Below the pieces are notes generated by a model. It saw nothing but the letters and a program-made list of their open reading frames with translations, had not been told where the DNA came from and searched no databases. A DNA stretch of 64,000 bases from Natrinema salsiterrestre (lineage in GTDB: Archaea; Halobacteriota; Halobacteria; Halobacteriales; Natrialbaceae). Position numbers and translations under genes: made by a program. Positions within the stretch are counted from its first letter, which is position 1, and the number at the start of each line of letters is the position of its first letter. Where the stretch lies: contig NZ_JAMQOT010000003.1 in assembly GCF_029502005.1 (NCBI RefSeq), forward strand, positions 62,001-126,000, written 5' to 3'. Shown here one piece after another: positions 54,445 through 64,000 of the stretch.

Positions 54445-54464
54445 ACACCGGGTTTCCAGTGAAA
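54445..54464 (-). repeat. ORB-like element downstream of orc1
   Basis: ACACCGGGTTTCCAGTGAAA matches the origin-side repeats (consensus ACACCGTGTTTCCGGTGAAA) at 18 of 20 positions. It lies between the M24 gene and the orc1 3' end, so ORB-like sites flank orc1 on both sides. Confidence 0.65.
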
Positions 54465-54540
54465 TGTCGCCTCGTTGCCGGTTGACGCGGCGGAATTGAC
54501 ACATCGAGCGGGAGACGTACTGGAACCGTCCGAGCGCTGT

Positions 54541-54662
54541 GATGGCTCTCTATCGTCCGTTCGGACGCTCCGATGGCCCCCAATGACCCGTTTGGGCTCT
54601 GCGATGGCTCTCCGTATCCGTTTCGGCGCTGAGATAGCTACGCGTCGTCCGTTTCGACGAGG
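54541..54662. repeat. Four-unit imperfect tandem repeat (about 31 bp), each with a mini-hairpin
   Basis: Units begin GATGGC or GATAGC at 54541, 54572, 54603 and 54633 (31, 31, 30, 30 bp). Each contains a short inverted repeat around CCGTTTCGG (for example CGTCC-GTT-CGGACG, CCC-GTTT-GGG). The last unit overlaps the orc1 stop codon. There are no spacers, so it is not a CRISPR array. Confidence 0.8.
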
Positions 54663-55843
54663 ACTTTCCGCACGACGTCCGGGTCCTCGAGCAACTGGTG
54701 TTCGGTGTAACTTCCCTCCGCACTTCCCCCGCTTCGGCGGGCCTGCTCGAGGATGTCGAGGAAGGCGTGCTCCTTCAGCAGATCCCGCACCCGGCGCAGG
54801 GAGAGGGGCTCGGACCGCTCCTGTCGACAGATCTCCTCGTAGACGTCGTAGATCTTCGTCGTCCGGAACCCGTCCTCGTCGGCGGTGTTGAGCGAGAGGA
54901 CCGCCAGCGCCTGCAGAACGTGCCTCGAGTGGGGCGTCGAGCCGCGGATGAGCTCCCGAAAGCGGTCGGTCTCGGCTCGCTCGCGGGCCTGGACGACGAA
55001 CTCCTCTCGAACGGTATCGCTCCCCTTCGACTGGGCGATCTCGCCGGCGTACCGGAGGATGTCGATCGCCTTCCGCGCATCGCCGTGCTCGCGGGCGGCC
55101 AGCGCCGCGGCCCGCGGGATGACAGAGGGCTCGAGCACGCCGTCTTTGAACGCGTCGCTGCGGGCCTCCATGATGGTCCGGAGCTGGTTCGCGTCGTACG
55201 GCGGGAAGACGAACTCGCGCTCGCAGAGGCTGGACTTGACCCGCTCGTCCAGCCGATCCTTGTACTTGATCTTGTTACTGATCCCGATCACGCCGATCTT
55301 GCACGACTCGAGCTTGCCGGCTTCGCCCGCGCGCGAGAGTTGCATCAGGATGTCGTCGTCGTCGAGCTTGTCGACCTCGTCCAGGATGACGAGGACGACG
55401 TCGTACTGGGAATCCAGCACCGTCCAGAGGCGCTTGTAGTACGTCGAGGTGCTGAGCCCCTTGTCGGGGATTCGGACGTCGGTGACCGCCGGTTCGTTCA
55501 ACGAGTGGGCGATCGTCTGGACGGCCTGCGTCTCCGTGTTATCCTGAGCGCAGTCGACGTAGGCGAAGGCCGACGTGACGTCTTCGTCCCCCGCGACGCG
55601 GACGGCCCGCTCCGAGATGTACTTCGCACAGAGGGACTTTCCCGTTCCCGTCTTGCCGTAAATGAGGAGGTTGCTCGGACTCTGGCCGAAGATCGCCGGA
55701 TTGACCGCGTTCGCGAGTTCCGAAATCTCGTCGTCCCGGCCGACGATTCGCCCTTCCGCTGGGAGGTGGTTGATCTCGAGGAGTTCCTTGTTCTCGAAGA
55801 TCGGATCGTCGCGAGTGAACAGATCGTCGCCGGAACCGGACAT
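54638..55843 (-). CDS. orc1: Orc1/Cdc6 replication initiator
   Basis: A 401-residue AAA+ initiator. Walker A GKTGTGKS is at 63-70 and Walker B ILDEVDKL at 153-160; the arginine-finger region and the C-terminal winged-helix domain (about 305-400, RRVRDLLKEHAFLDILEQ) are visible. It binds ORB elements to open the origin. The start at 55843 is only 7 nt from an ORB-like repeat, so the gene is probably autoregulated. Haloarchaea carry several orc genes, each linked to its own origin; which one this is cannot be told. Confidence 0.94.
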   Translation of the reverse strand: MSGSGDDLFTRDDPIFENKELLEINHLPAEGRIVGRDDEISELANAVNPAIFGQSPSNLLIYGKTGTGKSLCAKYISERAVRVAGDEDVTSAFAYVDCAQDNTETQAVQTIAHSLNEPAVTDVRIPDKGLSTSTYYKRLWTVLDSQYDVVLVILDEVDKLDDDDILMQLSRAGEAGKLESCKIGVIGISNKIKYKDRLDERVKSSLCEREFVFPPYDANQLRTIMEARSDAFKDGVLEPSVIPRAAALAAREHGDARKAIDILRYAGEIAQSKGSDTVREEFVVQARERAETDRFRELIRGSTPHSRHVLQALAVLSLNTADEDGFRTTKIYDVYEEICRQERSEPLSLRRVRDLLKEHAFLDILEQARRSGGSAEGSYTEHQLLEDPDVVRKVLVETDDA

Positions 55844-55849
55844 GCTCGA

Positions 55850-55869
55850 ACACCGTGTTTCCGGTGAAA
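55850..55869 (-). repeat. ORB-like element 1
   Basis: ACACCGTGTTTCCGGTGAAA, 7 nt upstream of the orc1 ATG. Identical to element 2. Confidence 0.8.
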
Positions 55870-56024
55870 TAGTGTTTCCGTTTGTGACTGGGGAGTCGGT
55901 CCTGAACCGGAGAGTGCCGTTACTGACGGTGCAAAGAGATATTCCGAGTAGGATTCGTTCTGGTACAGTCCCGGACTCCTTTCCTCGGTGGACCGGTTCG
56001 GGAACCGATCGGTGGTGAACACAC

Positions 56025-56044
56025 ACACCGTGTTTCCGGTGAAA
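56025..56044 (-). repeat. ORB-like element 2
   Basis: Identical 20-mer and orientation to element 1, with an ACAC extension on its left. Confidence 0.8.
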
Positions 56045-56085
56045 CGGAGAACGGAGGGTGTGAGGGGCAGGGGGTAATTGGAGCG

Positions 56086-56105
56086 CTCCACCGGAAATGC
56101 GGTGT
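56086..56105 (+). repeat. ORB-like element 3 (diverged)
   Basis: CTCCACCGGAAATGCGGTGT, opposite orientation, 16 of 20 matches to the perfect element, followed by GTGGGGT. Confidence 0.65.
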
Positions 56106-56234
56106 GTGGGGTGCTCTCACTCGTTAGTTGGAAATCGTCAGCACGATCGGCGTCGAAACGGGTGGTCGGAGTATCCGGTCCCGTTTCGATCCGCAGGCGT
56201 ACTGACTTCGATCCACTCGGCGAGTTGTACTCAC

Positions 56235-56275
56235 AACACCCATTTATATATTCCTATAACATACAGATACGTCAC
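56235..56275. other. AT-rich stretch, candidate DNA unwinding element
   Basis: A run containing CATTTATATATTCCTATAAC is strongly AT-rich within a GC-rich genome and sits among the opposed ORB-like repeats. Its position suits duplex opening by Orc1. Confidence 0.6.
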
Positions 56276-56425
56276 TGACATGTGTCAGATGCAACAGATT
56301 TGTTGGGAATAGAGACATCCGTTGGTAGAGGGATCCGTTAGGAATGTAGAGACGGGTCTCGAGCCACTGCTTCATTCTCCCGAAGCGACGGATACAGTGA
56401 TTCGTCGATGGCCAGTGATTCTTTC

Positions 56426-56445
56426 TTTCACCGGAAATCCGGTGT
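56426..56445 (+). repeat. ORB-like element 4
   Basis: TTTCACCGGAAATCCGGTGT, 18 of 20 matches to element 5, followed by GT-rich sequence. Confidence 0.75.
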
Positions 56446-56453
56446 GTAGTGGA

Positions 56454-56536
56454 TACTGATCCGGTGATCCGGTGGGTGTGTGGTGGATACTCGTCCAGTG
56501 GCGTACTCGTCCGGTAAGTGTGTAACTCGTACGGTG
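56454..56536 (+). repeat. Degenerate 13-mer repeats (TACTCGTCCGGTG)
   Basis: Four copies at 56454-56466, 56488-56500, 56504-56516 and 56524-56536 within a GT-rich tract next to ORB element 4. They may be secondary initiator sites. Confidence 0.6.
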
Positions 56537-56825
56537 TGAGATCGTGTGGCGTAGTGTTGATCGAATCTTGGAATCATCTCGAGCGTGCTGTACCCAGTGG
56601 GTTCCCGACCACCGTCGAGATGTTCCAGAGGCCTGTCAGAGTCTCGAAATCCGCCGAGAACCCCGTGCTCGTCGCGTCTGCCAGCTCTCGACAAACCGTC
56701 CGATTCAACGGAAGGCGTCTGCCTCTATCAAAACTTCTGTCTCCGTCGAAATCCTACTGGTCGTCGCCTCCGCTCGGTAGTGTACGGGACCGATTCGATT
56801 GCAGTGTACGCCCCTCTCGATGTGA

Positions 56826-56845
56826 TTTCACCGGAAACACGGTGT
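56826..56845 (+). repeat. ORB-like element 5
   Basis: TTTCACCGGAAACACGGTGT is the exact reverse complement of elements 1 and 2, followed by GGGTGTG. It borders the TFB pseudogene. Confidence 0.8.
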
Positions 56846-56853
56846 GGGTGTGA

Positions 56854-57421
56854 TCAGTCACGATTCCGTCTCTGGCACTGTCTAGTTCTGCCCCTCCCCG
56901 ACTGGCACGCTTCCGTCGAGAACTTTTCGAATTTTGCAGATCCTGCGATCGTAGCCGTTCCGATACTTTCGGTATCGAGTTGTTCTACTTGTACCCCCTC
57001 TGGAACGTTGTTTTCGGTTCGGAACCGTTTGATGATCCGGCCTTTCGCTACTTCTCCAGTGGATGTGTTCTTTGCGATCTTTGCTGATACGATACGCGAC
57101 GCAGTCGATTCAGCTGCCGTCGCTTCTGACTCGAGAGCGTGTTTCCGTTCCCATCTCGGTGATAGCCGGTTTCGGTGGACAGACACCGATCGTGACGCGT
57201 TGGCGTCAGTGGTGTGCCAGTCCGTTTCTTCGATACCTGCCCGTCACTCCGTCCCCAATCGGCCCTCGATCGAGTTGGTTCTCCTCGAGAACGAGTCCAC
57301 AGTCCTCACAGGTCGTTTCACGGTCAGCCTGTCGAACACTGCCACCACAATCGGGACACGCAGTCGTAGTCGTCTGGACGTTTTCGTCGAACGCCGTCGT
57401 ATAGACGTCTCTCGCTGCCAT
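56854..57421 (-). pseudogene. Truncated, frameshifted TFB (transcription factor B) pseudogene
   Basis: From ATG 57421 the frame reads MAARDVYTTAFDENVQ and the zinc ribbon CPDCGGSVRQADRETTCEDCG, typical of haloarchaeal TFB. After LDRGP the expected WR/RTGTPLTPTRHDRCLSTETGY lies in another frame, so there is at least one frameshift. The following cyclin-like part is scrambled across frames with stops (for example near AKIAKNTSTGEVAK) and ends around 56880; the second cyclin repeat is missing. It is therefore not a working TFB. Confidence 0.8.
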
Positions 57422-57542
57422 CCTTGACTCCGAAGGGAACAACAGAACAGCCCCTTCACCCCTTCTGGGGCGATACGCATCACTGGATCTCTCTGGGCAG
57501 CGGTGTGGAACGCAGAAAGAACAGCGGTGACTCCGCTCTCAG

Positions 57543-57932
57543 TTACCGTTTCGATGCCTCGTCGAGAAGCATGATTGCACCGCCGAGAAGTGCGAGGTTC
57601 TTGAGGAAGTTGATCTTGTTACCCTGTCGTTCCGTCCCCTCCATCGCCCAGAAGTTGTGAATGAACGGCGTCGTGCCGAGGAAGAACAGGATCAGTGCGC
57701 CGGCCGACGCCCGCGGGAACTTCCAGAGAATGACTCCGAGATTCGCGACGAAGAGCATGCCGGTGACGAACGGGACGAGTACGTCGGGCATCGGGACGCC
57801 CTTTTCCTCGGCGATAGCGACACGTTTGTCGTTGTTCTTGAACCCGTCGACGGCCATGTACGCGAGGATACCACCGTACAGCGCCCGTCCGAGGAACGAC
57901 GGCGGCGTGTCCGCTGTCTCAGACGGAGTCAT
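57543..57932 (-). CDS. DoxX-family membrane protein
   Basis: A 129-residue protein with about four helices. FLGRALYGGILAYMAVDGFKN and the terminal TERQGNKINFLKNLALLGGAIMLL match DoxX. DoxX-like proteins act with oxidoreductases or in quinol or sulfur-redox contexts. Its start overlaps the Asp-box gene stop by 4 nt; it is the second gene of that operon. Confidence 0.85.
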   Translation of the reverse strand: MTPSETADTPPSFLGRALYGGILAYMAVDGFKNNDKRVAIAEEKGVPMPDVLVPFVTGMLFVANLGVILWKFPRASAGALILFFLGTTPFIHNFWAMEGTERQGNKINFLKNLALLGGAIMLLDEASKR

Positions 57933-58981
57933 GCGTTCACCACCTCGATCCGACTGACGTTCGTCGGGACCCGGCCGACCGTCTCGTACTCACCCGTGTC
58001 CATCCGACGCATGATCCGTCCCTCTACGTCGTCGCGCTGGTCGGGGACGTCGAAGAGCCCGGACCCACAGATCACGTCTCCGTCGTAGACGTCCCACGTC
58101 TCGATGACCTCGTGGGGCTCGCCCGGGAACGAGACGCGCTCGAAGTCCCGACCGAAGTTCGTCGACTCGAACAGCGCCACCTCGTGGTCGTCGTCGACCC
58201 ATGCCGGGGGTGCCTCCTCGCCACCGCAGAAGAACACGGTCCCGTCGTGGACGAAGACGCGTCGGATGTACGAGAAGTCGCTGCCGCGGTCGAGCCGCGT
58301 CCAGGAGTCGCCGGCGTCGGTCGTCCGGTAGAGTCCGCCCTCCCCGACGGCGTGGCCGAGGCCGAGGTTCTCCAGATCGTGGTCGAGATAGCCGGTCGCC
58401 GCGAGCCAGACGTCCTCGGAGATCGGGAGGACCTGATGGACGTCGTCGACGATGGTGTCGCGCCGGTCGGTCCACGTCTGGCCGCCGTCATTGCTCAGAT
58501 GGATGCCGCCCGCTTCGACGCCGGCGATCAACTGCTCCGGCCGCCCCGGAACGACCTCGAGGGCTCGAAGCCGAGCGTAGTGTGGGTCGATCGGCGATTC
58601 CCAGTGACCGCGGGACGGGAGTTCGCGGAACCCCTTCAGCTCGGACCACGTCTCGCCGTCGTCGACGGACCTGAAGATGTACGGGTCGTTCGTTCCGGCG
58701 TAGAGCACGCCATCAGCGGTCGCGAGAATCGACCACACCTCGCTCTGTCCGGCGTGCCAGAAGCGGTCGCCGAGCGGAACGCCGAGATCCTCCCACGTCC
58801 GACCCCCGTCGAGCGAGCGATACGCACCCGTCGACGACGCGACGAACACGCCCTCTGTGTGGTCCCACGACGTGACGGCGGTCACGACCTCACAGTCGAG
58901 GACCTGTTCGAGGTCGCCGGGTTCGAACGGTACGCCCTCCGCTCGGTATAGACCGTCATCTGTCCCGATTAACAGTGTCAT
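57929..58981 (-). CDS. Asp-box (BNR) beta-propeller protein
   Basis: A 350-residue protein starting MTLLIGTDDGLYRAEGVPF. Repeated Asp-box motifs SLDGGRTW, SVDDGETW, SNDGGQTW and TTDAGDSW mark at least four propeller blades. No signal peptide is visible, so it is probably cytoplasmic. Sialidase-type catalytic residues are not recognisable; the propeller may hold an unknown substrate. First gene of an operon with DoxX. Its TATA (TTTATTATG on the minus strand) abuts an inverted repeat. Confidence 0.8.
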   Translation of the reverse strand: MTLLIGTDDGLYRAEGVPFEPGDLEQVLDCEVVTAVTSWDHTEGVFVASSTGAYRSLDGGRTWEDLGVPLGDRFWHAGQSEVWSILATADGVLYAGTNDPYIFRSVDDGETWSELKGFRELPSRGHWESPIDPHYARLRALEVVPGRPEQLIAGVEAGGIHLSNDGGQTWTDRRDTIVDDVHQVLPISEDVWLAATGYLDHDLENLGLGHAVGEGGLYRTTDAGDSWTRLDRGSDFSYIRRVFVHDGTVFFCGGEEAPPAWVDDDHEVALFESTNFGRDFERVSFPGEPHEVIETWDVYDGDVICGSGLFDVPDQRDDVEGRIMRRMDTGEYETVGRVPTNVSRIEVVNA

Positions 58982-59011
58982 ACGTACCGTGTACGGCGGG
59001 CTCATAATAAA

Positions 59012-59031
59012 GTTTTACCAAGCTGTAAAAC
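59012..59031. promoter_or_regulatory. Operator-like inverted repeat GTTTTAC-N6-GTAAAAC
   Basis: A perfect 7-bp inverted repeat with a 6-nt spacer, next to the TATA of the Asp-box gene and upstream of the divergent TatD-like gene. The core TTTAC-N6-GTAAA is the same as at 62486-62501 beside the TetR gene. Confidence 0.65.
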
Positions 59032-59109
59032 GCTAAGTGGGAGCGGCGGAAACGGGGATACGACCGCTCACTGTGGCCCGCTATCTCCCACAGGGTCCGC
59101 CAACTCACC

Positions 59110-60114
59110 ATGACCGCATCACACCCGACGAAGCGACCGACAGACGCAGCGCATCTCGATGATTCCGACGTCGACCTGCCGCCGGAACTCCTCAATCTCC
59201 CGTGGGTGGACATCCACAACCACGCGCACACGCTCTCGTGGGAGGACCGGGAGCGGTACGCGCTCGCCGGCTGTCGGTCGATGATGATGGTCGCCTCCGG
59301 CTATCACTGGACTCCGTACAAGCCGGTCGAGGCCGACGATATCCGGTTCCTCTGGGACGACGCGATCAATCGACGCGCAGCGATCCAGCGAAACCACTTC
59401 TTCGAGGCCAAACTGGGCCTCGGGATTCACACGGGGGTCCGTATCGAGAATCCGGACGAGCTTCTGGACGCGATGGACGCGTACTGCGAGCTCGACGAAG
59501 TGATCGCGATCGGCGAGACGGGCGTGACGCCCTCCCAGCACGTGAGTCGCTGGGACGTCGACCAGCAGCAGGCGATCGTTCAGGGGCAGATGGAACTCGC
59601 CGACGAGCACGATCTGCCGGTCCTCCTGCACACGCCGAACCAGTCTACCGACTCGAGGCGATCGTACCGTGACGGGATCGGGATTCCGGGATACGAAAAG
59701 AACACCGGCCTCGGTGCCGACCCCGTCATCGACAGTGATAACCCCGCGCTCGAGTCGGTCAAGCGGGATATCGAAGCGATGCGTGACGCCGGCTTATCCG
59801 ACCGACGGGTAGTCGCCTCTCACGCCGACGGGAACAACACCGAGTACCTGATGGAGAACACCGACTGTTATCTGAGCTACACCATCGGCCACTCGTGGCT
59901 CATCGGTGTTACCGCGGCCGACGTGGCCGACGCCATCGACGAGTACGGTCCGGAGCGGATCATGATCGACACGGACTGTGCGAACGTCCTCAGAACGGAC
60001 CCCTTCGCGCTGAAGCGAGCGATCTTCGAACTGTATCGCTACGGAATCGACGAAGCGGCAATCCGGAAAGTCGTCCTCGAGAACCCGCGCGACGTCTTCG
60101 ATTTCGACGCCTGA
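59110..60114 (+). CDS. TatD-like metal-dependent hydrolase
   Basis: A 334-residue TIM-barrel hydrolase. Metal ligands are seen in VDIHNHAHT (HxH), IGETGVT (Glu), LLHTPNQ, ASHADGNNTEY and IDTDCAN (Asp). The 60-residue segment near 65-125 and the lack of nuclease context suggest hydrolysis of a small ring or ester rather than DNA. Divergent from the Asp-box operon, convergent with the FAH gene. Confidence 0.8.
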   Translation: MTASHPTKRPTDAAHLDDSDVDLPPELLNLPWVDIHNHAHTLSWEDRERYALAGCRSMMMVASGYHWTPYKPVEADDIRFLWDDAINRRAAIQRNHFFEAKLGLGIHTGVRIENPDELLDAMDAYCELDEVIAIGETGVTPSQHVSRWDVDQQQAIVQGQMELADEHDLPVLLHTPNQSTDSRRSYRDGIGIPGYEKNTGLGADPVIDSDNPALESVKRDIEAMRDAGLSDRRVVASHADGNNTEYLMENTDCYLSYTIGHSWLIGVTAADVADAIDEYGPERIMIDTDCANVLRTDPFALKRAIFELYRYGIDEAAIRKVVLENPRDVFDFDA

Positions 60115-60163
60115 GTTCCGGACTGCCGACCCACGGCGGATCGAAACGACGCTCAGCGCGCCG

Positions 60164-61051
60164 TCAGTCGTATTCGCAGCTGTTCCGAAGCTCTCCGAGC
60201 TCTTCGACACCGATAGTCACGTCGTCGCCGTCCTCGAGCAGGACCGGCGGCTCTCGATACACGCCGACGCCCGGCGGCGTCCCCGTGAAGAGCAGGTCGC
60301 CGGGTTTCAGCGTGAACGCTCGACTGCAGAACGACACGAGCTCGTCGATGCCGAAGATGAGGTTCGACGTCGACGACTCCTGTAACCGTTCACCGTTCAC
60401 CTCCGCCCAGATCTCGAGGTCGTGCGGGTCGGAGACCTCGTCTGTCGTCACGAGCTCCGGCCCGGTCGGGGCGAACGAGTCGAGGCTCTTCCCGCGGACC
60501 CACTGGCCGTCGCCGTGTTGAAGGTCCCGGGCGGAGACGTCGTTGCCGATCATGAACCCGGCGACGTGGTCGAGTGCCTCGTCCCGGTCGACGCGTCGCG
60601 CTTCCTCGCCGATCACTACGACCAGCTCGGCCTCGTAGTCGACCTTTTCGGTCAGCTCCGGGTCCCAGGAAATAGTGCTCTCGGGCCCGGTGACGGTCGT
60701 GGGGAACTTCGAGAACAGCACCGGCTCGTCCGGGATCGGATTGTCTCCCTCCTCGGCGTGGTCCTGGTAGTTGAGCCCGACACAGACGATCTTCTCCGGA
60801 TCGGTGACCGGCGCGGTCCGCTCGACGGCCGCGAGATCGTAGACGCCGACGCCGGTCTCCTCGGCGTATTCGATCGCCAGTTCGGCCTTCCGTTGCCACT
60901 CCCAGTTCGCCAAGAGCGCGCTCGTTTCGTTCTCGATGTGGACGCCGGTGGCAGCGCCTGCCTCCGGTAGGTTGACGACTGTCTCGTCATCGATCGCTAC
61001 GCCACACCACGGTTCGTCCGCTTCCGTCGTCTGATATTGTCCGAGTCGCAT
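60164..61051 (-). CDS. Fumarylacetoacetate hydrolase (FAH) family protein
   Basis: A 295-residue protein with the FAH core: VCVGLNYQDHAEE, PVLFSKFPTTVTGPES, VDYEAELVVVIGEEAR, GFMIGNDVSARDLQ, GKSLDSFAPTGPELVT and LFTGTPPGVGVYREPP. The metal-binding Glu-x-Glu (YEAEL) and Asp (GNDVS) are present. These enzymes hydrolyse or decarboxylate/isomerise acyl-pyruvates in ring-cleavage pathways. Second gene of the amidohydrolase operon (44-nt gap). Confidence 0.9.
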   Translation of the reverse strand: MRLGQYQTTEADEPWCGVAIDDETVVNLPEAGAATGVHIENETSALLANWEWQRKAELAIEYAEETGVGVYDLAAVERTAPVTDPEKIVCVGLNYQDHAEEGDNPIPDEPVLFSKFPTTVTGPESTISWDPELTEKVDYEAELVVVIGEEARRVDRDEALDHVAGFMIGNDVSARDLQHGDGQWVRGKSLDSFAPTGPELVTTDEVSDPHDLEIWAEVNGERLQESSTSNLIFGIDELVSFCSRAFTLKPGDLLFTGTPPGVGVYREPPVLLEDGDDVTIGVEELGELRNSCEYD

Positions 61052-61095
61052 TTGATGTACTGAATTTGTATCGTCGTCTCACGCGCTGCAGGTGT

Positions 61096-62451
61096 TCACA
61101 GATCCAGCCCGGCTTCGTCGATCAGGCGCTGTCCGGACGCCACGAACCGCTCGAACTCCTCGTCCACCTTCGGGTTCAGGAGTTCGCCGTCGTGCTTGAC
61201 CGGTTCGCCGTCGACGAGCACCGTCTCGATGTGGGACGGATCGGACTGGAACACTACGGTCTCGATCGGAGAGTGCGACGGCGCCGTCATGAAGTCGTCG
61301 GTGTCGATCAGCACGATATCCGCGCGTTTGCCCGGCGTGAGTGTGCCGATCTCGTCCGCCATGTTCAGTGCCTTCGCCCCCTCGATCGTCGCCATCTCGA
61401 GGGTGTCTCGCGCCGAAATACTCACCTCGGAAACCTCCTCGTCGTTCTCGAGGACCGCCTGGTTGTCGAACATCCGCTGGAGCTGCATCCCGATCCGCAT
61501 CTGGCTGCCCATGTCGCCGCTGATGTTCGAACAGACGTCGACGCCCCACGCCGGGCGTCCGCCCGCTTCGAGCACCTTTCCGGTGACGGGGATGCCGTGG
61601 CCCATCTGCATTTCGACCTCCGGCGTCGACGAGAAGGAGACGCCCTGCTCGACGGCGTGATCGATGTCTTCCTGGGCGAAGTGGTTCCCGTGAGCGACGT
61701 TGACGTCCGGGCCGAGCATATCGTGGAGGGCCCCGAAGCCCTGGTAGTCGTCGCCGTACACCGACGACGACCACAGCGCGGCACCCATGTGGATCGTACT
61801 GAGGACTCCCAACTCTCGTGCCAGTTCCAGGTCGCTGCGGGCGGTTTCATCGGTACAGAAATCCGGCCCTCGGAGCCCGAGGGCTAAGCTGAGCAGGTCG
61901 TCGTCGCGGATCTTCTCCTCGTGGAGCTCGCGGATCTTCCCTTCGGGGAGGCCGACGTCGCTTTCGTACCACCACTTCGCCGCGTCGTCACCCGGCGGGC
62001 CGTAGGTGTACACCGCGCGCATCCCGGCGTCCTGCAGCGCGTCGACGGCCCGTTCGCCGTGTTCGAGCGAGTTGGGATACGACCAGTCCAGAGCCGTGGT
62101 CGTTCCCGTATAGAGCTTCTCCAGCGCACCGAAGAGGCCGCCGAGATACATGTCTTCGGGCCGGTAGAGCCCGGTGATATTGCCGAGCATGTCATCGAAG
62201 TATTCGCCCATGAGCGACCAGTCCCCGGCGATTCCCCGTACTTGAGTCTGTGCGAGATGGATGTGCGAGTCGACGAAGCCGGGTACGACGATGTGGTCGT
62301 CCGCGTCGATGACCTCGGCGTTCGATGGAGAGAGTCCGCGGCCGACCTCGATTATCTCTCCGTCTTCGATGAGAACGTCGGCCTCGTCCAGTTGTCCGAT
62401 CTCCGGATCGAGGGAAACGACGGTCCCGTTTCGTATGATCGTTCGTGACAT
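61096..62451 (-). CDS. Amidohydrolase (TrzN/SAH-deaminase-like, metal-dependent)
   Basis: A 451-residue amidohydrolase starting MSRTIIRNGTVVSLDPE. HxH (VDSHIHLAQ), LSTIHMG, NVAHGNHFAQED and the metal Asp in WGVDVCSNIS are present. The family deaminates or dechlorinates N-heterocycles. The shape is close to cytosine/guanine deaminase-like enzymes, but the substrate is not determined. It is first in a two-gene operon with FAH; the TATA region overlaps the operator-like repeat at 62486. Confidence 0.85.
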   Translation of the reverse strand: MSRTIIRNGTVVSLDPEIGQLDEADVLIEDGEIIEVGRGLSPSNAEVIDADDHIVVPGFVDSHIHLAQTQVRGIAGDWSLMGEYFDDMLGNITGLYRPEDMYLGGLFGALEKLYTGTTTALDWSYPNSLEHGERAVDALQDAGMRAVYTYGPPGDDAAKWWYESDVGLPEGKIRELHEEKIRDDDLLSLALGLRGPDFCTDETARSDLELARELGVLSTIHMGAALWSSSVYGDDYQGFGALHDMLGPDVNVAHGNHFAQEDIDHAVEQGVSFSSTPEVEMQMGHGIPVTGKVLEAGGRPAWGVDVCSNISGDMGSQMRIGMQLQRMFDNQAVLENDEEVSEVSISARDTLEMATIEGAKALNMADEIGTLTPGKRADIVLIDTDDFMTAPSHSPIETVVFQSDPSHIETVLVDGEPVKHDGELLNPKVDEEFERFVASGQRLIDEAGLDL

Positions 62452-62485
62452 GATCAACTGCTATGTTTGACCATAAGGTTAAAAA

Positions 62486-62501
62486 TTTACCGTCCGGTAA
62501 A
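62486..62501. promoter_or_regulatory. Operator-like inverted repeat TTTACCG-TC-CGGTAAA
   Basis: A perfect 7-bp inverted repeat with a 2-nt centre (TTTAC-N6-GTAAA core) in the amidohydrolase/tetR divergent gap. It overlaps the likely amidohydrolase TATA and precedes the tetR TATA (ATTATATATC, about 62532-62541). Confidence 0.7.
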
Positions 62502-62561
62502 CAATGTCCGTCGCGGGTTTCGGAGCAATCGTATTATATATCTCTCGCTACGATTACCCGT

Positions 62562-63185
62562 ATGAGCGAATCCCGCGACAAGGTCTCCTCCAAAGACACC
62601 CGGCAGGTCATCATGGAAGCGACCTTCCGTGCCCTGAGCGAGCACGGGTACAAGGACCTTCGCATGCGTGACATCGGTGACGAGATGGAACTCACTCGGC
62701 AAGTCATCCACTACCACTTCGACGGCAAGTACGACCTCCTGTCGTCGTTTCTCGAGTACATCATCGATCAGTACGAGGGAAGCGTCGAGGTCAACGAGGA
62801 CGCCGAGGTCAGAACGGAACTCAACGCCCGGATCGACCAGTGTCTGTTCGGCCCGGAGTTCGAGGACTTCAGTCACTGGGAGCGAATGAAGGTGTACCAC
62901 GAACTGTACACGTACGCCCAGAACGACGGCGAGCACCGAGAGATATTCGACGACCACTACGACCGGATTCGCGGCAGCATCGTCGAAGTCGTCGAAGACG
63001 GCATCGAAGAGGGAACGTTCGAACCCGTCAACGCCGACCGCATGGGTCAGCTCATCACCGACGTCATCCACGCCGCCCGCGGCCGTCGGATCTCGCTGGG
63101 TCACGAGGACGCACCGGAAGAAGCTCGAAAGGCCATCGACGAGTTCATTCTCGATTCGTTGTACGCGTCACAGACCGAGGATTAA
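62562..63185 (+). CDS. TetR-family transcriptional regulator
   Basis: A 207-residue protein starting MSESRDKVSSKDTRQVIMEATFRALSEHGYKDLRMRDIGDEMELTRQVIHYHFDGKYDLLSSF, a clear TetR HTH (about 12-58). The C-terminal domain should bind a ligand. A TATA box about 25 nt upstream supports the start. Divergent from the amidohydrolase-FAH operon, so it probably controls it and itself. Converges with the small OB-fold gene, overlapping it by 4 nt. Confidence 0.92.
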   Translation: MSESRDKVSSKDTRQVIMEATFRALSEHGYKDLRMRDIGDEMELTRQVIHYHFDGKYDLLSSFLEYIIDQYEGSVEVNEDAEVRTELNARIDQCLFGPEFEDFSHWERMKVYHELYTYAQNDGEHREIFDDHYDRIRGSIVEVVEDGIEEGTFEPVNADRMGQLITDVIHAARGRRISLGHEDAPEEARKAIDEFILDSLYASQTED

Positions 63186-63400
63186 TCGGCCGGATCCTCG
63201 ACCGCTGTGAGACGGGGCTTCTCAGTTCGCTGTTCCGCTCGAAGCCGATGCTTGCCGGCGAACTCGACCGCATCGTCCACACTCACTGTATCGTCGGCCA
63301 GCTGAGCGATTACCTGTACCCCGCCGAACCGGGCGAGTACGAGGTAGTTCGGTAATCGGATGTCCGGTGGCGTCATCTCGACGGTCGTCTTCGCGGCCAC
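63182..63400 (-). CDS. OB-fold (DUF35-like) protein, apparently lacking the zinc ribbon
   Basis: The segment GEVAAKTTVEMTPPDIRLPNYLVLARFGGVQVIAQLADDTVSVDDAVEFAG resembles the OB half of DUF35 proteins that partner acyl-CoA enzymes. The N-terminal rubredoxin-like zinc ribbon is missing. A GTG at 63400 (or ATG at 63376) would give 72 or 64 residues. It lies right after the CoA-transferase stop and may be a truncated or split gene. Confidence 0.5.
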   Translation of the reverse strand: MAAKTTVEMTPPDIRLPNYLVLARFGGVQVIAQLADDTVSVDDAVEFAGKHRLRAEQRTEKPRLTAVEDPAD

Positions 63401-63416
63401 TTCTCCGGTCTCGAGT

Positions 63417-64000
63417 TCATTCCTCGTCGTCTCCCGAGCCGAACACGCCGGCGTTTGCCAGCGCCTCGACCTCCTCCTCGGAGTACCCCAGTTCGCGGAA
63501 CACCGCTCGGTTGTGTTCACCGAGCAGCGGCGGCGCGGAGTCGAACCCGCTCTCTGCGTTATCGTACCGGAGCGGGTGTTCGATGACCGGAATCTCCCCG
63601 AGCTCCGGATGTTCGACCTCGGTGATCGTCCCTCGCGCGTCTATCTGTGGGTTGTGCAACGCCTCTTCGACGTCGTAGACCGGGCCGGCCGGGACACCGG
63701 CGTCCTCCGCGATGATCTCGATCCACTGGTCCGTGGTCTTCTCGCTGAGAGTGTCCTCGATCTCGGCTTCCAACTCGCCGATGTGCTCGACGCGGTCCTT
63801 ATTCGTCTCGAAGCGATCGTCGGCCGGGAGATCGGGCCGGTCGAGCGCCTCACAGAGCTCGCCCCAGAGCTTCTCGTTGAGGATGCAGATATTCAGGTGT
63901 CCGTCCTCGGTCTCGAAGGTCTGGTACGGCGCGAGTACCGGATCCTTCGTCCCCATCCGCCGCGTCTCCTCGCCGGCGAACACCATGCCGGCCTGTTTCG
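63417..64000 (-). CDS. Class III CoA-transferase (CaiB/BaiF family), C-terminal part, gene runs off window
   Basis: The frame is open to the right edge, so only the last about 194 residues are seen. QTFETEDGHLNICILNEKLWGELCEALDRPDL and AGVPAGPVYDVEEALHNPQIDARGTITEVEHPELGEIPVIEHPLR are hallmark CaiB/BaiF sequences. It transfers CoA between carboxylic acids. An in-frame Met at 63986 is internal rather than the true start. Confidence 0.9.
   Translation of the reverse strand, partial: KQAGMVFAGEETRRMGTKDPVLAPYQTFETEDGHLNICILNEKLWGELCEALDRPDLPADDRFETNKDRVEHIGELEAEIEDTLSEKTTDQWIEIIAEDAGVPAGPVYDVEEALHNPQIDARGTITEVEHPELGEIPVIEHPLRYDNAESGFDSAPPLLGEHNRAVFRELGYSEEEVEALANAGVFGSGDDEE

Follow-up and report, generated by a model that had tools for sequence, protein, structure and literature searches.

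The oriCb family of haloarchaeal origins adjoins Hvo_orc5 with an rRNA-operon context, whereas its Natrialbales-type members lack a conserved context (PMC3528665 section 10). In H. volcanii, deletion of orc5 abolishes initiation at oriC2 (PMC6063281), and cdc6G, the orthologue of orc5, is among the initiators of the active H. mediterranei origins (PMC4595724). Additionally, the oriC3-cdc6D origin of H. hispanica is disrupted by a putative transposase (PMC4441112 section 15). In this study, we analyzed a 64,000-nt stretch of Natrinema salsiterrestre DNA, hereafter the window, in which an origin with opposed ORB-like repeats had been predicted next to an orc1/cdc6 gene. From its sequence, we predict that the locus is an origin of chromosomal replication and belongs to the haloarchaeal oriCb type (H. 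volcanii orc5/oriC2 type), with a probability of roughly 80%. It is a known kind of origin, larger than the window shows, with two unusual architectural features.

The features of the locus are listed below, with each ORB scored by its matches out of 20 to the query 20-mer, TTTCACCGGAAACACGGTGT.

54445–54464, minus strand: ORB 3′ of orc, the terminal ORB on the M24 peptidase side (18/20)
54638–55843, minus strand: orc1/cdc6 initiator gene, 401 aa, ATG at 55843 (TIGR02928, 435 bits; Cdc6_lid and Cdc6_C winged helix)
55850–55869, minus strand: promoter ORB, ending 7 bp 5′ of the orc start codon (20/20)
56025–56044, minus strand: second proximal ORB (20/20)
56086–56105, plus strand: weak ORB, divergent partner of the 56025 ORB, 61 bp apart (16/20)
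56242–56281, no strand: AT-richest 40 bp by AT content, the presumed unwinding element
56426–56445, plus strand: distal-array ORB (18/20)
56826–56845, plus strand: distal-array ORB, the last before the insert (20/20)
56874–64000, no strand: in-window part of the array-splitting insert (8,334 bp in all), which runs on to window-equivalent 65207
Window-equivalent 65260, 65322, and 65390 (L031:17261–17410), one orientation: three displaced ORBs

All six ORB-like elements predicted around orc1/cdc6 are present where they had been placed. Two copies are identical, one is their exact reverse complement, and the others match at 16–18 of 20 positions, as claimed; only the numbering of the elements went astray, departing from coordinate order. 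The elements from 54445 to 56845 stand, but the cluster does not end at 56845 as had been thought, since three more copies lie at 65260, 65322, and 65390. Similarly, the AT-rich stretch exists, but it is not at the orientation switch (56044/56086); it lies approximately 140 bp past the switch, between the plus-strand copies at 56086 and 56426. The array is not a product of chance, because the expectation for the 20-mer in the window is 0.00 (at most 3 mismatches; 100 shuffles) and the reversed pattern used as a control has no match in the whole genome. The whole-genome motif search named as a check in the original prediction returned nine matches at up to 3 mismatches in 4.79 Mb. Eight of these are clustered here, on contig C21 within 10,965 bp, and the ninth is a stray with 3 mismatches on contig C11. 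Four imperfect copies of a 34-nt unit, spaced at 30–31 bp, also lie between the end of orc and the ORB that follows the gene (54534–54659).

The orc gene is intact, with a complete, checked reading frame. The AAA+ and winged-helix domains of Orc1/Cdc6, expected of the gene at an orc-linked archaeal origin, are both present, and inverted ORBs surround an AT-rich stretch beside it, as expected of an archaeal origin. It is one of 11 orc-family genes above the family cut-off in the Natrinema salsiterrestre genome. For comparison, we used the best 80 of 160 orc-related loci from a scan of the genome collection, in which Orc identity is 94–96% in Natrinema loci and approximately 80% in Haloferax and Halorubrum loci. 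Against the Haloferax loci of this set, the identity is 80–81%, and the oriCb family is delimited at at least about 80% (Wu 2012). In Haloferax massiliensis (L061), an rRNA operon lies 2.4 kb downstream of the orc orthologue, and from this context, rather than from the Hvo_orc5 sequence, we infer that the L061 gene is the orc5 orthologue. Six sources were scanned, of which L061 is the one Haloferax, and no rRNA operon was found near orc in the others (L080, L066, L045, L031, and L010). The rRNA context of L061 equals that of oriCb/Hvo_orc5 (PMC3528665 section 10), which supports the oriCb assignment; moreover, the ORBs beside the L061 orc match the same 20-mer. The predicted link between an origin and orc1/cdc6 is supported: the motif is confined to the locus, the array recurs beside orthologous orc genes, and the gene matches the orc family whose neighboring origin is active in Haloferax.

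Collected at up to 4 mismatches around the orc genes of the same loci (best 80 of 160), 563 elements yield the family consensus WTTCACCGGAAACnCGGTGT followed by a weak GT-rich tail, this set being biased by the search pattern. The tail had been likened to the haloarchaeal G-string; the 563 elements do show a GT preference, although a weak one, but no G run. The haloarchaeal ORB dyad is TTTC-N5-GAAA, and the palindromic center here, TTTC-N4-GAAA, is indeed one base shorter. This shorter dyad is a trait of the oriCb-type ORB family. The suggestion of an orc-specific ORB subtype is borne out by four other orc genes of this genome (C27, C2, C1, and C3), which carry repeats with unrelated cores. 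The idea is not new, since a link between ORB sequence and Orc family is already published, at least in section 7 of PMC3528665. Repeats of their own type are clear for 5 of the 11 orc-family genes (this orc, C2, C27, C1, and C3), and a search around the remaining six gave coding-like noise only. Near the C24 orc gene of the same genome, there are two C-rich elements whose dyad is one base longer than that of the present ORBs and which carry extended G runs; as one of the two falls within the C24 reading frame, the label oriC1 for C24 is tentative. At loci L185, L184, L187, and L188, the orc genes have 6–10 copies each of their own repeat type, for example, CACCCCTCTATCGATGTGT, ACCCCTCGTCCAGAGTGAAA, CACCCCGTGTGCGAAATGAA, and ACCCCCCTCGTTCGGAATGAG.

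In the proposed comparison with ORBs linked to orthologous orc genes, the same array recurs beside orc in the 80 related loci (best 80 of 160). Every one of these 80 loci has an ORB 10–60 bp 5′ of the point where the orc match begins, usually at 26–33 bp; in a few of them, this point falls some residues inside the gene. Here, the promoter ORB directly follows a TATA-like stretch. The presence of an ORB just 5′ of orc in every locus examined suggests autorepression, in which Orc bound at the promoter ORB would block its own promoter. Furthermore, a divergent ORB pair 50–90 bp apart is found in 39 of the 80 loci, and 27 have an ORB within 500 bp past the orc stop. Of the 1.1 kb 5′ of orc, the 40 bp richest in AT sit 401–700 bp before the gene in 60 of the 80 loci.

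The elements, their restriction to this place, the orthology, the split, and the conservation of the promoter ORB are visible in the sequence itself. For an origin of the oriCb type, binding, unwinding, firing, autorepression, and titration may be pictured as follows. The Orc encoded at 54638–55843 would bind its own ORB subtype, with the consensus given above. The opposed ORBs flank 56242–56281, where the duplex would open and the helicase would be loaded. The promoter ORB would let Orc shut off its own synthesis, and the ORB past orc, together with the distal array, may buffer Orc by offering it extra sites. In this genome, a block of genes with IS-like ends has entered the distal array; the core stayed intact, and three ORBs now lie 8.4 kb away. 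The same elements could be read as the operator array of an Orc-type transcription-factor regulon with no origin function, and Sulfolobus Orc1-2 is such a non-initiator regulator (PMC9738581). However, the genome has no dispersed targets, the layout of opposed ORBs flanking AT-rich DNA next to orc is that of an origin, and the orthologous H. volcanii orc5 is needed for oriC2 firing (PMC6063281), all of which makes a pure regulon very improbable.

A skew inflection at the locus had been proposed as a further check. On the 500-kb contig C21, the maximum of the cumulative GC skew is at 37 kb and its minimum at 392 kb, neither of which is at the origin. The 50-kb right-minus-left contrast in raw skew at the locus is −904, beyond all 401 grid positions (−900 to 747), and it barely exceeds the nearest rival step of −900, close by at 136 kb. 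The step at the locus is a local high point of the cumulative curve; the origins of H. walsbyi lie at such high points, and GC skew is weak in archaea (PMC3119063). The proposed checks thus came out mixed: the clustering of the 20-mer is clear, but the expected inflection exists as a strong local step and not as an overall extremum. GC skew was rejected as proof of an origin.

The array is split by an insert of 8,334 bp (56874–65207) that lies between perfect 13-bp inverted repeats, GGCACTGTCTAGT. The three further ORBs, 8.4 kb away and just beyond the window, share one orientation and have no orc nearby. In the sister genome G019, which lacks the insert at this site, the DNA ending at 56871 and that starting at 65207 are approximately 12 bp apart, and the origin runs on without a break into the distal ORBs and the zinc-ribbon gene. 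The spacings of the three matching ORBs are 63 and 68 in G019 versus 62 and 68 here. By this contiguity and these near-equal spacings, the sequence identifies the three displaced ORBs as the distal end of this one array. The insert closes on the right with a repeat of approximately 140 bp (L031:17069–17208; window-equivalent 65068–65207), which has many copies across the genus among the matches listed and is probably an IS or MITE end. In the left part of the insert, a TFIIB-type zinc-ribbon fragment (57209–57421; Pfam E 8e-10) looks like a broken tfb gene. The metabolic cargo comprises DoxX-like and BNR-repeat proteins, TatD/amidohydrolase, FAA hydrolase, amidohydrolase, a TetR regulator, and a CoA-transferase. 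Most of the insert (57499–64894) is 94–95% identical to a block of G019 located 284 kb from its origin, and the flanks of that copy map to other contigs in the Natrinema salsiterrestre genome. No target-site duplication was seen at the insert by eye. A recent duplication is unsupported, as the genes are single copy here and lie 284 kb away in G019 at 94–95% identity.

When this genome (G000) is set against G019, 5 of the 60 positions in the displaced ORBs are different, and each of these changes is at element position 0, 12, or 13, which are variable in the motif. For the five other ORBs compared, the figure is 4 of 100 positions, with 56426 omitted for want of a clear partner, and the DNA around the displaced ORBs is approximately 81% identical. 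This conservation of the core fits selection and recent insertion alike. The displaced ORBs might constitute a separate negative-control locus that titrates Orc, like H. hispanica oriC2D or E. coli datA; they retain the core letters, and in H. hispanica, oriC2 is restrained by an ORB-rich region that is not an origin, probably through titration of Cdc6E (PMC3936714 section 19). We regard such a locus as unlikely, because in the sister genome these ORBs are simply the end of the origin array and their displacement needs no function of its own; in addition, three sites are few, and the conservation may only reflect recent insertion. As an account of how the remote cluster arose, an independent second origin or dedicated titrator was set aside, because the three matching ORBs of G019 are contiguous with the array.

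Across 29 genomes of the genus, the unit belongs to one site, in the order M24 peptidase, orc with origin, and zinc-ribbon gene. The layout is as here in 20 genomes (in G008, across two contigs), inverted in two (G001 and G014), and empty in seven. The inverted layout is also seen in L033 (N. altunense) and L034 (N. pallidum), which probably represent G001 and G014 again. In the empty genomes, the M24 peptidase and zinc-ribbon genes are 140–373 bp apart, and each genome has 0–4 motif matches, so that, at this threshold, they do not carry the array at another place. One empty site (G023, L155) has a degenerate ORB with 3 mismatches at the expected place of the downstream ORB, and the other six have no ORB at up to 6 mismatches. 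In a two-gene tree of site-adjacent genes with several weak nodes, the empty genomes nest among occupied ones in about three places. Together with outgroup loci occupied at the same site, this nesting makes loss likelier than independent gain in the occupied genomes. As to the neighboring zinc-ribbon gene, it is reversed in L042 (8341–8514) compared with other loci. A weak ORB-like match (4 mismatches) lies approximately 0.9–1.1 kb past it in several loci (L198:3131, L200:10370, L201:11509, L202:10426, and similar), and it is absent from the Natrinema salsiterrestre genome at up to 5 mismatches.

Other occupied loci are also interrupted. An IS605-type OrfB/TnpB frame lies in the distal ORB array of G007 (L151:7330–8954), the contigs of G008 end at the distal-array place, and L049 and L053 have approximately 3.5 kb between orc and its downstream ORB. 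The three insertion cases in the array, one deduced from a contig break, are all in distal ORBs and none is in the core, which predicts a minimal origin. Against an active oriCb-type origin, it may be held that the origin is dispensable, with 7 of 29 genus genomes lacking it, and that, in this genome, its activity might have been reduced or lost through the split. The locus would then be a dormant or dying origin, silenced by the insertion and by redundancy, with ORBs that act chiefly as the operator of orc and as a sink for its product. H. mediterranei has documented dormant origins (PMC4595724); among the genomes compared, the insert splits the array in Natrinema salsiterrestre only; 11 orc-family genes could provide redundancy; and the missing units fall in about three places of the tree. 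However, orc is intact, the core ORBs match the consensus, and the changes in the displaced ORBs relative to G019 are confined to the variable positions amid surroundings of approximately 81% identity. We consider dormancy rather unlikely and keep an origin of the oriCb type as the preferred reading.

To describe the inverted layout, G001 and G014 were compared with the uninverted G004. The genomes are collinear through each terminal ORB and reversed between them, with flanks approximately 93% identical. Both breakpoints lie inside the outermost ORBs, which in the inverted genomes keep their outer flank and exchange their inner flank. In G004, the terminal ORBs share 21 identical bases in inverted orientation. 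Recombination inside the ORBs is the simplest account of the inversion; promotion by Orc pairing is speculation. The two-gene tree joins the uninverted G004 with the inverted G014 (support 0.80), which speaks against a single inversion, whereas the cassette identity points the other way (91% for G001–G014 vs. 86% for G001–G004). We found no description of an ORB-bounded inversion in the parts of the literature on archaeal origin inversion and disruption that we covered. A further-reaching possibility, which we consider quite doubtful, is that the outermost ORBs are the functional ends of a self-delimited orc-origin cassette, in which Orc would pair the ends, recombination would flip the origin, and the displaced ORBs would stay in the circuit from kilobases away. 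If so, the orientation of an origin can change over evolutionary time.

Collectively, the genus provides a set of natural experiments in which a single origin, always at one site, is intact, split, flipped, or lost. The promoter ORB in all 80 loci makes autoregulation of an archaeal initiator directly testable, and the ORB-bounded inversion suggests a further role for initiator sites, as ends for recombination.

Compared with known systems, the locus is closest to the oriCb family (H. volcanii oriC2/orc5 and H. mediterranei oriC3-cdc6G), with an Orc approximately 80% identical to those of Haloferax loci and with a shared ORB core, opposed ORBs, and an AT-rich stretch (PMC3528665, PMC6063281, and PMC4595724). 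The one full-length Haloferax locus scanned is rRNA-adjacent, as in that family; in contrast to rRNA-adjacent oriCb, no rRNA operon lies beside the origin here (L031 scanned). The extra ORB after orc and the split of the array by 8.3 kb also set the present locus apart. As in E. coli dnaA autoregulation and datA (PMC3936714), initiator boxes lie in the promoter of the initiator itself and dispersed sinks may exist, but the initiator is unrelated, and autoregulation and sinks are only presumed here. Similar to H. hispanica oriC2 with oriC2D (PMC3936714 section 19), ORBs lie on either side of orc and titration is possible; however, one ORB follows orc here versus 11 there, and the displaced ORBs are on the opposite side, brought there by insertion. 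Finally, as in H. hispanica oriC3-cdc6D (PMC4441112 section 15), a mobile element interrupts a haloarchaeal origin, but in the present case, the core remains, as do the ORBs to either side.
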